Shown here piece by piece: positions 7,859-46,277 of a stretch of DNA of 56,130 nt; the first letter of the stretch is position 1; each line of letters opens with the position of its first letter. A program made the position numbers and the translations under genes. This DNA comes from Methanocellales archaeon (GTDB lineage Archaea > Halobacteriota > UBA148). Under the pieces are notes generated by a model. It made no database searches, was not told the DNA's origin, and saw only the letters and a list, made by a program, of their open reading frames with translations. The stretch is taken from positions 1-56,130 of the forward strand of contig JASEEV010000006.1 in NCBI GenBank assembly GCA_030019435.1, read 5' to 3'.

Positions 7859-8239
7859 TTATAACAATCTCTTGATCTTGTCAGCCGTTTTCTCCATTTC
7901 CAAAAGGATCAAGCCTAATCCAGCCCCAGGGTTGCTCATGACGACCAAAAGGGCTTTAGGCCCTGCTCCTGCAGCGATCAACTTGCCCTCTTTTGATTCA
8001 ACGATGATCCTATCTGGAACTCCTTTCTTCAGCTCAGAAGTTGCGGTCTCTGCAGCTCCAAGCATCGTTGCACTCATAGCCGCAAAGGTCTTGGCACTAT
8101 AAGAACGTTGAGCAAAATCAGACGCCATCAGCAAGCCATCCCTTGAGACTATCGCAGAGGCTTCCACATCGCCCACATCTCTCAGATCCTCCAACACTTT
8201 TTCCAACATTTCAGCTATGGTCGTCACTTTTTCACTCAT
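7859..8239 (-). CDS. Roadblock/LC7-domain protein
   Basis: A 126-residue single-domain roadblock/LC7 (MglB-like) protein, cytoplasmic and expected to dimerise. Key features are the ASAIVSRDGLLMAS strand-turn-strand near residue 27, the AAMSATMLGAAETA helix near 55 and RIIVESKEGKLIAAGAGP near 78. It is a close paralogue of the protein encoded at 42915-43280, which sits beside a small GTPase fusion; here no GTPase gene is adjacent. Roadblock proteins commonly regulate Ras-like GTPases. It is divergent from a wHTH regulator, with a perfect inverted repeat between them that may control both. GAAGG precedes the ATG. Confidence 0.9.
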   Translation of the reverse strand: MSEKVTTIAEMLEKVLEDLRDVGDVEASAIVSRDGLLMASDFAQRSYSAKTFAAMSATMLGAAETATSELKKGVPDRIIVESKEGKLIAAGAGPKALLVVMSNPGAGLGLILLEMEKTADKIKRLL

Positions 8240-8262
8240 CCTTCTGATCGACGTTGTTGTAG

Positions 8263-8286
8263 CACACTACGATTGATTGTAGTGTG
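8263..8286. promoter_or_regulatory. Perfect inverted repeat between divergent genes
   Basis: CACACTAC and GTAGTGTG are exact reverse complements separated by eight bases (GATTGATT). The site lies 24 bases before the roadblock start and just upstream of the TATA element (GATATAATC, about 8296-8304) of the divergent wHTH gene. Position and symmetry suggest an operator for a dimeric regulator, most simply the neighbouring wHTH protein acting on the roadblock gene and itself. This is inference from sequence. Confidence 0.6.
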
Positions 8287-8320
8287 TATTCAACTGATAT
8301 AATCTTTACTACGATAAATT

Positions 8321-8611
8321 ATGCTGTTGGATATTCTGAAAAGGAAGCACTTCTGCGATGTTTTTCTGCTGATCAAAGACGAGCCAAAGTCGTTCAATGA
8401 GATACAGAAGAAGTTGAACATGTATCCCGATACCCTAAATCGCCGGATAAAAGAGTTGTTAGGATATGATTTGATAGAATCCGTTGTCATCCAGGTAGAA
8501 GGAAGGGATCGCATCAAATATCAACTCACCCAGAAAGGAAAAGATATCTTACCTGAGATCGAGGAGTTTGTAAGGCTATCCAAAATGATCGAGAATAGAA
8601 TTAAATCATAA
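8321..8611 (+). CDS. HxlR-like winged-helix transcription regulator
   Basis: A 96-residue wHTH protein. It reads ILKRKHFCDVFLLIKDEPKS then FNEIQKKLNMYPDTLNRRIK, a helix-turn-helix, with the wing in IQVEGRDRIKYQLTQKG and a C-terminal helix for dimerisation. Family members are usually local regulators responding to small signals. The TATA box centre at about 8300 lies 21-25 bases before the ATG, so the transcript is probably leaderless. A symmetric site at 8263-8286 lies directly upstream, so control of itself and of the divergent roadblock gene is likely. Confidence 0.85.
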   Translation: MLLDILKRKHFCDVFLLIKDEPKSFNEIQKKLNMYPDTLNRRIKELLGYDLIESVVIQVEGRDRIKYQLTQKGKDILPEIEEFVRLSKMIENRIKS

Positions 8612-42410: not shown

Positions 42411-42505
42411 GCCAGCCCTTGGGAACCTAGATTGCGAGCGTAGCGAGTAATCGAGGATAAGAAAATCTTTGATTTTCGACCATAGATCGCTGCTATGCTC
42501 ACCTG
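42411..42505 (+). pseudogene. Partial, interrupted duplicate of the 5S rRNA 3' end
   Basis: AGCCCTTGGGAACC (42414-42427) and CCATAGATCGCTGCTATGCT then CACCTG (42480-42505) match the last 40 bases of the real 5S with one change, but are separated by about 53 foreign bases. The insert contains ATTGCGAGCGTAGCGAGTAA (like the GAGCGAAGAATCGAGGA element at 42030) and a perfect GAAAATC-TTT-GATTTTC hairpin. The 5' two thirds of 5S are absent, so it is not functional. It ends inside the 3' end of the convergent universal stress protein gene. Confidence 0.75.
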
Positions 42506-42915
42506 CTTTTTTCGCGCTCCTCTGGAATCACGACAACAGGACATGATGCCATGTTGATCAGATCTTGGGCTGTACTCTGGCGGATAAATCGATAAATCTT
42601 CTCAAATTTGTAATGTCCCATGACGATCATGTCATAATCCTTGGACATGTCAACGGTCTTCTTTGGGATCTCCTCTGCCTTGCATCTTATATCAAGCAGC
42701 TCATGGCTGGTTTCGACGCCTTGCATCCGTCCCATCTCCGCATATTTGTCTATTGCACCACGTCTTTTCTCGAGGGCTTCGTTCGTATCATCTGCGGTGA
42801 CGATGGTGACCATATGAATTCTTGCACCCAGTTGCTTCGCTAGTTCAGTTGCCGTTTTGACAACGTCCTCATCATCCTTCAACGGATTAACTGGAACAAG
42901 TATCTTTTTGAACAT
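42499..42915 (-). CDS. Universal stress protein (UspA family)
   Basis: A 138-residue UspA-fold protein: MFKKILVPVNPLKDDEDVVK at the N-terminus and, near the C-terminus, MGHYKFEKIYRFIRQSTAQD with CPVVVIPEE. The ATP-binding pattern G-x2-G-x9-G(S/T) is imperfect: only MGHYKFEKI is seen, so nucleotide binding is uncertain. The ATG overlaps the roadblock stop (TGATG), so translation is coupled. It is last in a minus-strand operon with a roadblock protein and two KaiC-like ATPases. Its 3' end overlaps the duplicated 5S fragment. Confidence 0.87.
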   Translation of the reverse strand: MFKKILVPVNPLKDDEDVVKTATELAKQLGARIHMVTIVTADDTNEALEKRRGAIDKYAEMGRMQGVETSHELLDIRCKAEEIPKKTVDMSKDYDMIVMGHYKFEKIYRFIRQSTAQDLINMASCPVVVIPEEREKSR

Positions 42916-43280
42916 CACAACAACTCCTTTGCCTTATCAGCTGCCTTTTCCATCTCAACCAATATCAATCCCAAACCCGCCTCTGGTGGTGTCATGACGA
43001 TCAAAAGGGCTTTGGGACCGGCGCCAGTAGCGATCACCTTTCCTTTTGCGGACTCCACGATGATCCTATCTGGGATTCCCTTCTTCAGCTCCGCCGTTGC
43101 GGTCTCTGCCGCACCTAACATGGTGGCACTCATCGCAGCAAAGGTCTCAGCATGTATCCCAGGGGGAATGTCAGATGTCATGATCAGACCATCTCTTGAG
43201 ACGACGGCAGAGGCTTCTATATCACCAGTCCTTTTTAGATCACTCACTATTTTTTGGAGCGTTTCTGCAACTGTTGGCAT
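42915..43280 (-). CDS. Roadblock/LC7-domain protein
   Basis: A 121-residue paralogue of the protein encoded at 7859-8239, with near-identical AAMSATMLGAAETATAELKK and PDRIIVESAKGKVIATGAGP. It is the likely regulator (MglB-like) of the small GTPase domain encoded one base upstream in the operon (43282). Roadblock dimers commonly act as GTPase-activating or scaffold partners. Start ATG 43280 directly follows the GTPase fusion stop. Confidence 0.9.
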   Translation of the reverse strand: MPTVAETLQKIVSDLKRTGDIEASAVVSRDGLIMTSDIPPGIHAETFAAMSATMLGAAETATAELKKGIPDRIIVESAKGKVIATGAGPKALLIVMTPPEAGLGLILVEMEKAADKAKELL

Positions 43281-43281
43281 A

Positions 43282-44451
43282 TCATTTGACCTCTGTTATC
43301 ATGTCGATCAGCGTTTCAAATGCCTCAAACACACCTTTCTTTTCCGTCGCAACGGTTGGGACGATCGGCACCGATTTTGGGACTTTCATTCGCTCTCGTA
43401 GTTCATCCACGCTTAAAGCATCTGGCAGGTCTTGTTTGTTCGCTACGATCACATAAGGAAGCCCGTGTGCCCTCGCAGTCTCTAGCATCTGCTTCGCCCT
43501 GACGAAGTCCATCGGCTTTGATGAGTCTAACACAAGGAACACGCCCATCGCCTCGCCACCGAGCACTTTGAGAATGGGATCAAATCGTTCTTGTCCTGGC
43601 GTTCCAAATATGTCTGCTGCAAATCCTTTGTGGTCTATCCTACCATGATCCATCGCAACGGTAGTTCCAAGGCGGTCCACAGATACGGCTCTGCTCGAGA
43701 TCGCGTGGATAAAAGTGGACTTGCCAGAGTGGTATGCCCCTGTCACAAGGATCTTGGGTATGTATACCCGTATACCAGTAGGTCGAAACACTTTGAACAA
43801 CATCGATCGTTTCTTCACCTCAGCCCAGTCCACCTTTGAGACTCCAAAGTACTGTCCAAATATGACTCGTTCAGCAATTCCTCCGATCGTGACCACCGCA
43901 TCGAACAGCTCTTCTTTTATCTGTTTCAGTGTTTCCTCAGCATAGGGCCAAGCGGTGAAGTTGCAAACAAAGACGTTATTGTACGTCATATGGAGTTTTT
44001 TCCATTTTTTGACATACTCCAACGTCTCCTCCTCTCCACACAGGTCCATGAGGGTCGATAGGGGCTCAAACACGACCAGACCGCTGCCAAGCTCTTCCAT
44101 TGCCTTTGACAAAGTCTCATCCAATGCCCCGATGTTCTCCGGATCGGACACAACGTAGCGTTCATCAGAATCCGCTCCCACTAGTGCCGAATAAGCGTCA
44201 ACGATGATAAATCGATCCTCGAACTTTCCAACATCCCAGCCAAATTCGTTGAAGTGCTCTCTAACCGTATAGGGGGCTGAGCTGATAGTGACATATATTC
44301 CTTTCCCTCCTTGCATCAGATGGTGGTACAAGGTCTGCATCCCAAATACATCACCCTCGACACCAGGTTGTACGTAATATACCAATGACCTGCCTGGTGG
44401 AACTTCTCCACCCATGAAGTCATCCAGTTTTGGAATGCCTGTTTTGAGCAT
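43282..44451 (-). CDS. KaiC-like ATPase domain fused to Ras-like small GTPase
   Basis: A 389-residue fusion. Residues 1 to about 225 have the KaiC/RecA fold (TGIPKLDDFMGGEVPPGRSL, then FEPLSTLMDLCG), but the Walker A position reads QPGVEGDVFG (28-37) without the Lys, so the ATPase site seems dead. Residues about 230-389 are a small GTPase of Arf/Rab-like type: G1 GAYHSGKST (238-246), Thr263/264 for G2, DIFGTPGQERF (280-290) for G3, NKQD (338-341) for G4. It lies between a second KaiC-like gene and the roadblock gene, all within three bases. I infer a switch controlling polarity, motility or signalling. Confidence 0.88.
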   Translation of the reverse strand: MLKTGIPKLDDFMGGEVPPGRSLVYYVQPGVEGDVFGMQTLYHHLMQGGKGIYVTISSAPYTVREHFNEFGWDVGKFEDRFIIVDAYSALVGADSDERYVVSDPENIGALDETLSKAMEELGSGLVVFEPLSTLMDLCGEEETLEYVKKWKKLHMTYNNVFVCNFTAWPYAEETLKQIKEELFDAVVTIGGIAERVIFGQYFGVSKVDWAEVKKRSMLFKVFRPTGIRVYIPKILVTGAYHSGKSTFIHAISSRAVSVDRLGTTVAMDHGRIDHKGFAADIFGTPGQERFDPILKVLGGEAMGVFLVLDSSKPMDFVRAKQMLETARAHGLPYVIVANKQDLPDALSVDELRERMKVPKSVPIVPTVATEKKGVFEAFETLIDMITEVK

Positions 44452-44453
44452 TT

Positions 44454-45143
44454 TCAGTCACCCTTTATCACGATGTTCGCTCCTTCAATCTCATATTCGA
44501 GCCACTCTGTTAGTTTCGAGCCCAATCCTCTTGCCCTAATGAAAAATCGATCGTTCTCTTCTTTGATCTCAATCATACCGTCGACCAGTTGTTTGAGCGT
44601 TGCGATCGTCTGCTCATCGTGCATACCACTCTCGATCACATAGATACCGATGGCATCTGCTACTTTAATTCGGCCCGTGAAGACGTGTAAGAACCTGAAA
44701 ATGGTCTGCAAGTTGGAGTACATCAGCATCGTCGATAATGAGTTGATGATCAGTCTTGTTTTTTGAATACGGGCTCTCATATAGAACTGCTCAAAAAACT
44801 GACTTATCTTGACGCCGATGCCTGTTAGATCCACAGGGCTCGATGCCCTCTTTATGTTTTGCGTGTCGGATACATCCATCCCGAGCGTTCTTGATACGCA
44901 GTCCACGATTCCGAACCGCTCTCTGTCCTTCTCTATGTCCAGCTCGCTCTGCTCAAACCACTTGAGCACACCTTCACCGTGCTCTCTTGTGGATACGAGA
45001 ATAATTCCTTCACCGTTCATTAAGCCAGCATGCACGATGTTGTTGACAAATATCTCTTTCCCGCACATCGGCGGTCCAATTAGCATTATGTTCAGTCCGC
45101 CCTGGACTTTATCCAATTTTGGTATCCCGAGATGATATTCCAC
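44454..45143 (-). CDS. KaiC-like RecA-family ATPase
   Basis: A 229-residue single KaiC-like domain. LGIPKLDKVQGGLNIMLIGP leads to the Walker A variant GPPMCGKE (23-30); RLIINSLSTMLMYSN near 133 is the Walker B region. Single-domain KaiC-like proteins are often signal-transduction ATPases in archaea. Start is GTG 45143, supported by AAGGAG eight bases upstream and a TATA-like GTATTTTATAG before it. First gene of the KaiC-GTPase-roadblock-USP operon. The RNase P RNA gene ends about 70 bases upstream on the same strand. Confidence 0.87.
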   Translation of the reverse strand: MEYHLGIPKLDKVQGGLNIMLIGPPMCGKEIFVNNIVHAGLMNGEGIILVSTREHGEGVLKWFEQSELDIEKDRERFGIVDCVSRTLGMDVSDTQNIKRASSPVDLTGIGVKISQFFEQFYMRARIQKTRLIINSLSTMLMYSNLQTIFRFLHVFTGRIKVADAIGIYVIESGMHDEQTIATLKQLVDGMIEIKEENDRFFIRARGLGSKLTEWLEYEIEGANIVIKGD

Positions 45144-45213
45144 GTTAATCTCCTTCGGATTAAGTTGCCTATTTATTACTATAAAATACTTATCCTTCTT
45201 AATTTTTTGAAAG

Positions 45214-45636
45214 TGAGTGAGGAGAGTAAGCCCCCTTTTGTTTCAGCGGCATTCGTCTGAGCGTCATACTCGGGCATCGGCTGGACTCCTTATCTGCCCA
45301 TCTTTGACTTGCACCTACGAGGTTTCGCCGTTCCATCCATGCATGCACGACCTCATCGTCAAAAATCGCAAAAGCGATTTTCTCCTCCTCGATTCTTCGC
45401 TCAGAATCTCGGTTCCGAATCATCGCATTGGTGCAGCGTGGTATCGTTTCTGTGCCAGAGCCAAGACTCTCGCCTTGTGCGCTTACATGCACTCGTATGT
45501 CCAGACGGTGGGGGGACTTTCCTCGCAACCTTTTTGCAAGCAAAAAGGCGTTTCTGTTGCACAGAAACAGCCTCTTTCTACGCAAGTAGAAAGCTGCTTG
45601 ACCAAAAAGTTGTGGCAGCCGCCCTTCCTCTCTCAA
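45214..45636 (-). ncRNA. rnpB: RNase P RNA
   Basis: Catalytic RNA that trims tRNA 5' ends. On the minus strand GCGAGGAAAGTCCCCCCACC (45526-45507) is the universal P4 5' strand (CR-I). Near the 3' end GAATGCCGCTGAAACAAAAG then GGGGCTTACTC is the CR-V/P4 3' strand. GAGAGAGG at the 5' end pairs CCTCACTC at the 3' end as P1. Length about 423 bases is long for archaea; extra length comes from perfect hairpins CTTTCTAC/GTAGAAAG (45574-45593), GTTTCTGT/ACAGAAAC (45550-45568), CCTTTTTGC/GCAAAAAGG (45529-45548), GATTCT/AGAATC (45391-45408) and AAAATCGC/GCGATTTT (about 45362-45381). End positions approximate. Confidence 0.88.
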
Positions 45637-45652
45637 TCATATATTCACGCAA

Positions 45653-45665
45653 AAAGCATATACCT
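45653..45665. promoter_or_regulatory. Shared TATA element of rnpB and AMMECR1 gene
   Basis: AAGCATATACCTT contains the near-palindrome GCATATAC/GTATATGC. Read on the plus strand it lies about 26 bases before the GTG of the AMMECR1 gene, which would be leaderless. Read on the minus strand it lies about 20-25 bases before the RNase P RNA 5' end. One AT-rich element may thus serve both directions. Confidence 0.5.
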
Positions 45666-45686
45666 TTTGCTCCCAAATAACAAAAT

Positions 45687-46277
45687 GTGTTGACTCTAGA
45701 AGAAGGCGTAAGGGCAGTAAAGCTTGCTAGGAACGCAGTCGAGAAATACGTTAGAGACGGTGAGGTACTCTGCCCAGAGAAGCTGCCGAAAAAATTTAGT
45801 GAGAAGAGGGGCGTATTCGTTACCTTAAAGAAGAACGGCCTAAGAGGATGTATAGGGCATCCATATCCGACTGTGCCATTAGGCGAAGCGATCATCGACT
45901 CTGCGATAAGTTCCGCTGCGAAAGATCCAAGATTTATGCCTCTTAGCGCAGAGGAGCTGGACAAAATAACGATTGAAGTGACGGTGCTAACCCCTCCAAG
46001 ACCGATTCGTGCTAAGCCAACGATGTTACCGAAAAAAATAGAGATCGGGAAACATGGGTTGATCATCACCAGGGGACGAAATCAAGGGCTTCTGTTACCA
46101 CAGGTTGCCGTTGAACATGGTATGGACGAGGAGGAGTTTCTCTCTCAGACATGCATGAAAGCAGGATTGTATCCAGACGCGTGGTTGGAAGAGGGTACGC
46201 AAATATATGTTTTCGAGGGGCAAATATTCGTTGAGAAAACGCCAAGAGGAGACGTAGAGGAAAGGAGAATCACCTAG
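45687..46277 (+). CDS. AMMECR1-domain protein
   Basis: A 196-residue protein with the hallmark [11 protein letters not shown] (LRGCIG at 52-57) and [34 protein letters not shown] near 110-145. The AMMECR1 family is conserved from archaea to human; its activity is unknown, though it often lies beside MEMO and radical SAM genes in archaea. Start GTG 45687 is probably leaderless (TATA 26 bases upstream); a TTG follows directly. It overlaps the convergent DUF47 gene by eight bases. Confidence 0.92.

Follow-up and report, generated by a model that had tools for sequence, protein, structure and literature searches.

A conserved archaeal gene module that joins a pseudo-KaiC/MglA-type GTPase fusion to KaiC-like and roadblock proteins

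Gene set at the locus and sequence motifs of its products

The window, a 56,130-nt stretch of DNA from a Methanocellales archaeon, is contig C65 of the host genome (G000, 1.42 Mb, 94% complete). It carries a minus-strand gene set at 42499-45143, with the transcription order KaiC-like protein, KaiC-GTPase fusion, roadblock protein and universal stress protein (Usp) (Table 1). The initial annotation had described these genes as a four-gene operon, and our ORF call recovered all four, with 2 nt between the KaiC-like gene and the fusion, 1 nt between fusion and roadblock and a 4-nt overlap of roadblock and Usp. Pfam assigned the fusion to KaiC over aa 2-231 (PF06745, 2.5e-21) and to Arf/Ras over aa 233-385 (~1e-12), the KaiC-like protein to DUF7504 (2.6e-24), DUF7090 (2e-15) and KaiC (1.4e-10), the roadblock to PF03259 (1.3e-13) and Usp to PF00582 (3.2e-16). 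About 70 nt upstream of the KaiC-like gene, at 45215-45634 on the same minus strand, lies an RNase P RNA of archaeal type, and an AMMECR1-like gene diverges on its far side (window 45143-45687). This arrangement of RNase P RNA and module occurs again in order-mates (L021, L023) and in the family f11 loci L025-L027.

Table 1. Positions of the module genes, the two halves of the fusion and a second roadblock gene in the window.
Feature	Position	Strand	Size and start	Basis
KaiC-like protein, DUF7504/DUF7090 type	44454..45143	-	229 aa, GTG	Pfam, alignment
Pseudo-KaiC/small-GTPase fusion	43282..44451	-	389 aa, ATG	Pfam, alignments, AF2, Foldseek
Pseudo-KaiC half of fusion	43762..44451	-	aa 1-230	motif tally, TM-score 0.86 to PH0284
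MglA-type GTPase half of fusion	43285..43761	-	aa 231-389	motifs, tree clade
Roadblock/LC7 protein (MglB-like)	42915..43280	-	121 aa, ATG	PF03259, alignment, adjacency
Universal stress protein (Usp) domain	42499..42918	-	139 aa, GTG	PF00582
Second roadblock gene, operon subfamily, without GTPase	7859..8239	-		PF03259 1.2e-14

The N-terminal half of the fusion has a RecA/KaiC fold, as seen from the Pfam match and from Foldseek, which aligned the KaiC half with PH0284 (2dr3). It does not carry the residues of a KaiC ATPase. The Walker A motif had been called dead from the window alone, and this holds for the whole family: the Lys is present in 0/63 aligned fusions, which instead share a conserved P-G-x-[ED]-G motif where the Walker A loop would be. 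In the window PGVEGDVF stands in place of the P-loop and SS in place of the catalytic Glu pair, a pair that is not conserved among the aligned fusions either. The AF2 model of the fusion (pLDDT 90.7, pTM 0.85) falls below pLDDT 50 only at switch I (260-264), and in it the C-terminal hairpin strand of KaiC (226-237) continues directly into GTPase beta1. The KaiC-like protein encoded upstream has a degenerate P-loop as well, GPPMCGKE, in which the Lys is retained and Glu replaces Ser/Thr; most copies of this partner are degenerate at this site. Around aa 100-115 the partner contains a strikingly conserved stretch, SSPVDLTGIGVKIS, with T107 invariant, which may be a binding site.

The GTPase half shows the motifs G1 GAYHSGKS, switch I R260..TT, G3 GTPGQ and G4 NKQD. 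The G, G and K of G1 (GxxxxGK[ST]) are present in 63/63 aligned fusions, as is the final S/T. G3 starts at G283 and reads GTPGQ in place of DxxGQ (GTPG in 63/63, Q in 60/63), so that the position of Ras Asp57 is Gly in 63/63. T263-T264 of switch I are likewise found in 63/63, with Thr and not Arg beside the G2 Thr, and R260, three residues before TT, is also invariant; a role of this Arg as intrinsic finger is conjecture. The initial annotation had called this half an intact small GTPase, a conclusion which stands with G1 and G4, although the 'DxxG' cited for it (D-I-F-G) is one register off and is not the canonical G3. GTPGQ and a Thr replacing the MglA arginine finger mark MglA groups 2-5 (Wuichet and Sogaard-Andersen, PMC4316618), and judged from its sequence the GTPase half fits these groups by motif and context. 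With 389 aa and the GTPase behind a KaiC domain, the protein lies outside the stand-alone size range of 150-240 aa. The closest plasmid matches of the GTPase adjoin roadblock genes, one of them within an annotated CvnA-B-C-D-like conservon. Two standalone GTPases (L241, L242) have TTPGH instead of GTPGQ, and each of these short loci carries three roadblock ORFs.

In the roadblock protein a DG pair (RDGL) is conserved, Gly31 being present in 25/25 aligned sequences with Asp or Glu preceding it. Its PDB relatives are 7f8m, the best structure match, CvnB5 and MglB. The roadblock is known as a dimer from solved relatives.

Distribution, origin and linkage of the fusion

We found a match to the fusion in 70/394 genomes of the phylum and in 29/136 genera. 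Full-length copies of the fusion occur in about 70 of the 394 genomes; the match in G296 is a lone 179-aa GTPase without fusion. Identity to the window copy is 68-75% in order-mates, ~60% in Methanoperedens/ANME-2 and 50-60% in Archaeoglobaceae. The most distant set, ~30-35% identical and with the same neighbourhood across three families, is tentatively called Methanomicrobiales-like here. The module thus spans Archaeoglobaceae, ANME-2 and this Methanomicrobiales-like set. Four genomes of the host's own family (G001-G004) have neither the fusion nor any roadblock, an apparent joint loss. In a tree of the GTPase domain, 30 fused copies form one clade (support 100/96), separate from 16 of 17 standalone archaeal GTPases and from four bacterial MglA/CvnD-type copies; the remaining standalone archaeal GTPase, L089, clusters with the bacterial copies. 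Since the fused GTPases form a single clade, one ancient fusion event is their most likely origin. The initial annotation had named as refuting case a fusion found only once, possibly by an annotation join; its matches in 70/394 genomes speak otherwise, and full-length copies together with the single clade rule out a join.

Linkage was tallied over 80 loci from species-level genomes, with loci that have room for the neighbour as denominators. The roadblock adjoins the fusion in 77/77 close-relative loci, and all 77 therefore have it within the four genes used to define MglA-family context. Of 73 close-relative loci, 71 have a KaiC-like homologue upstream of the fusion; in the other two the homologue at this place is more degenerate. 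Sixteen Methanomicrobiales-like loci have KaiC-like gene and fusion without an adjacent roadblock. Three gene orders were observed: KaiC-like, fusion, roadblock as in the window; roadblock, KaiC-like, fusion in Alkanophagales; and roadblock, fusion, KaiC-like in second copies of G191 and G366 and in the sole copy of G386. In G027, GTPase and roadblock are joined in one 546-aa ORF, and its three family members have one in-frame stop between the two. The AF2 model of this natural triple fusion (L027), whose alignment was padded with in-frame read-through rows, contains a full roadblock fold, with a pTM of only 0.77 and roadblock blocks mostly at pLDDT 56-87. APC-corrected mutual information between fusion and roadblock over 94 pairs (effective ~50, too shallow a set for the outcome to weigh as a negative) gave no enrichment of GTPase or switch columns over KaiC-half columns.

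At the level of genomes, any roadblock is present in 68/70 with a fusion search match and in 79/324 others (Fisher 4e-32, kinship uncorrected). The operon-type roadblock subfamily was found in 37/365 genomes, 33 of them with the fusion, by a model trained on operon roadblocks and so biased towards fusion genomes. The order-mate G009 (82% complete) has this subfamily and no fusion. Three genomes of the Archaeoglobaceae family without fusion have as their only roadblock another type with different neighbours. A roadblock without any MglA-type GTPase occurs in 48 genomes, so roadblocks must have other jobs too.

The remaining neighbours are less constant. Usp, which had been counted as part of the module, follows the roadblock in just one other lineage (G234: L059/L117), and a fixed membership is thereby ruled out. 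In G155 and in those Archaeoglobaceae loci that had room for a further neighbour, the gene directly after the roadblock has a V4R domain and is nearest to the phenol sensors MopR/PoxR. FeoA-FeoB lie directly upstream of the module in Methanomicrobiales-like loci. At L065/L169 the roadblock is duplicated and two or three V4R genes surround the fusion operon.

Roadblock paralogues and the proposed GTP switch

The host genome contains 13 roadblock genes, all matched by the operon roadblock profile and 12 of them at E <1e-28. The second roadblock without GTPase that had been pointed out at 7859 is real, but it is one of these 13. The MglA-type GTPase is single in this genome, where other small-GTPase matches look FeoB-, translation-, Era- or EngB-type. 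At L190 (12995-15341) a histidine kinase, a response regulator and a roadblock share one overlapping operon; the kinase is a membrane protein with 5TMR-LYT, the response regulator lies behind it, and the roadblock overlaps this regulator by 4 nt. Two paralogues, the one at window 7859-8611 and another at L192 260-1026, each have as neighbour a divergent gene of helix-turn-helix-like type, similar at both places, and are likely a duplicated roadblock-regulator pair.

The gene set is a conserved ancient signalling module and no chance arrangement. We favour, with a probability of about 0.7, a GTP switch of the MglA/MglB type that is built on a KaiC scaffold without catalytic activity. The C-terminal half of the fusion is predicted to be the GTP-binding switch. 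The N-terminal half, a KaiC fold without normal ATP binding, would most likely serve as an oligomerisation or docking scaffold, paired with the degenerate KaiC-like protein encoded upstream. The roadblock would bind the GTPase face and, in a putative GAP or GEF role, set its nucleotide state or couple inputs to it. The initial annotation had likewise proposed a GTPase switch with a built-in KaiC-like scaffold and a roadblock partner, a proposal now strengthened by the linkage, the three gene orders, the GTPase-roadblock fusion and the MglA-type motifs. Several of the host roadblocks are probably alternative input adaptors for this single GTPase, and one such adaptor would be under control of the histidine kinase/response regulator. 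Taken further, the 13 roadblocks, the single MglA-type GTPase and the kinase-linked roadblock suggest that the pseudo-KaiC-scaffolded GTPase is a hub shared by over ten roadblock adaptors, which would be interchangeable and would each have their own input, an idea that we put forward tentatively and hold to be rather doubtful. If true, a non-Asgard archaeon would have a G-protein network in which many inputs converge on one switch.

As to the output, the GTP state might steer a type IV pilus or archaellum, as in the surface motility switch of Myxococcus MglA. The host genome has a pilus-type locus elsewhere, with a T2SSE secretion ATPase, TadC-like and pilin-like genes (both named by sequence appearance only) and its own KaiC-like gene, and archaeal T4P loci frequently contain roadblock arCOG02603 and genes of the KaiC family (PMC4858521). 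This explanation appears unlikely to us, however, as no pilus gene stands beside the fusion in the inspected loci and 0/13 host roadblocks are at the pilus locus. Archaellin (PF01917) gave no match in the host genome or in the fusion-bearing order-mates G006, G008 and G010, which rules out for this lineage the archaellum link suggested earlier, and none in 16/70 fusion genomes overall. Similarly improbable is a Ragulator-like nutrient or redox hub, in which roadblock and V4R protein or kinase would report a ligand and the GTPase would relay it to metabolism or iron uptake. The V4R gene with its likeness to phenol sensors and the FeoA-FeoB genes agree with such a role, but each is limited to one or few lineages, and the FeoB neighbours, whose orientation flips in L081 and L087, may be plain synteny. 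From the KaiC fold of both first genes one could also read a KaiC-type ATPase, or a clock unit, to which the GTPase domain is accessory; this is very improbable given the Walker A Lys missing in 63/63 fusions, the unconserved Glu pair and the mostly degenerate P-loop of the partner. Chance clustering or an annotation join, for which nothing was found in favour, can be dismissed in view of the recurrence across the phylum, the conserved linkage and the single GTPase clade.

Relation to known GTPase-roadblock and KaiC-like systems

Ras-type switches with roadblock partners are the basis of eukaryotic Rag/Ragulator and TRAPP signalling and of bacterial polarity. The closest parallel to the MglA/MglB-type switch favoured here is MglA/MglB of Myxococcus and Thermus together with MglA groups 2-5, where a Ras-fold GTPase with GTPGQ and switch I TT is likewise found beside a DG-pair roadblock. 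Unlike in groups 2-5, the GTPase lies behind a pseudo-KaiC domain in a protein of 389 aa; the MglA census retained proteins of 150-240 aa and reported no conserved neighbours for its methanogen group, group 4 (PMC4316618). From standalone archaeal MglA-type GTPases the fused copies differ in forming their own clade. The actinobacterial conservon (CvnA kinase, CvnB roadblock, CvnC DUF742, CvnD GTPase) shares GTPase and roadblock as well as a kinase input, and a CvnD-type GTPase is among the closest plasmid matches of the fusion GTPase; the four genes here, however, include neither DUF742 nor a kinase and have KaiC-like parts instead.

Archaeal KaiC-like proteins also use an inactive KaiC domain as a signalling part, and fusions with REC and HalOD1 are known; inactivated 'iKaiC' forms are included among them (Makarova 2017, cited in PMC5847659). 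We found no mention of a KaiC-GTPase fusion in the KaiC-like signalling literature covered, a body that did not extend to Makarova 2017. The Asgard GTPase/roadblock/TRAPPC3 set (PMC10933270) comprises the same three fold types: V4R has the TRAPPC3 fold too (PMC10933270), so that the Archaeoglobaceae version of the module has a V4R/TRAPPC3-like gene, and we count the roadblock's best structure match, 7f8m, as a further likeness. The Asgard GTPases are Rab-like, and the passages covered mention no KaiC fusion. Across Archaeoglobaceae, ANME-2 and Methanomicrobiales-like archaea the dead-KaiC-GTPase version is conserved, which suggests an old, central and unstudied signalling line in methane-cycling archaea, accessible to testing in cultivable hosts. 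The module unites KaiC-like hubs and MglA-type GTPases, which the literature covered here handles apart.
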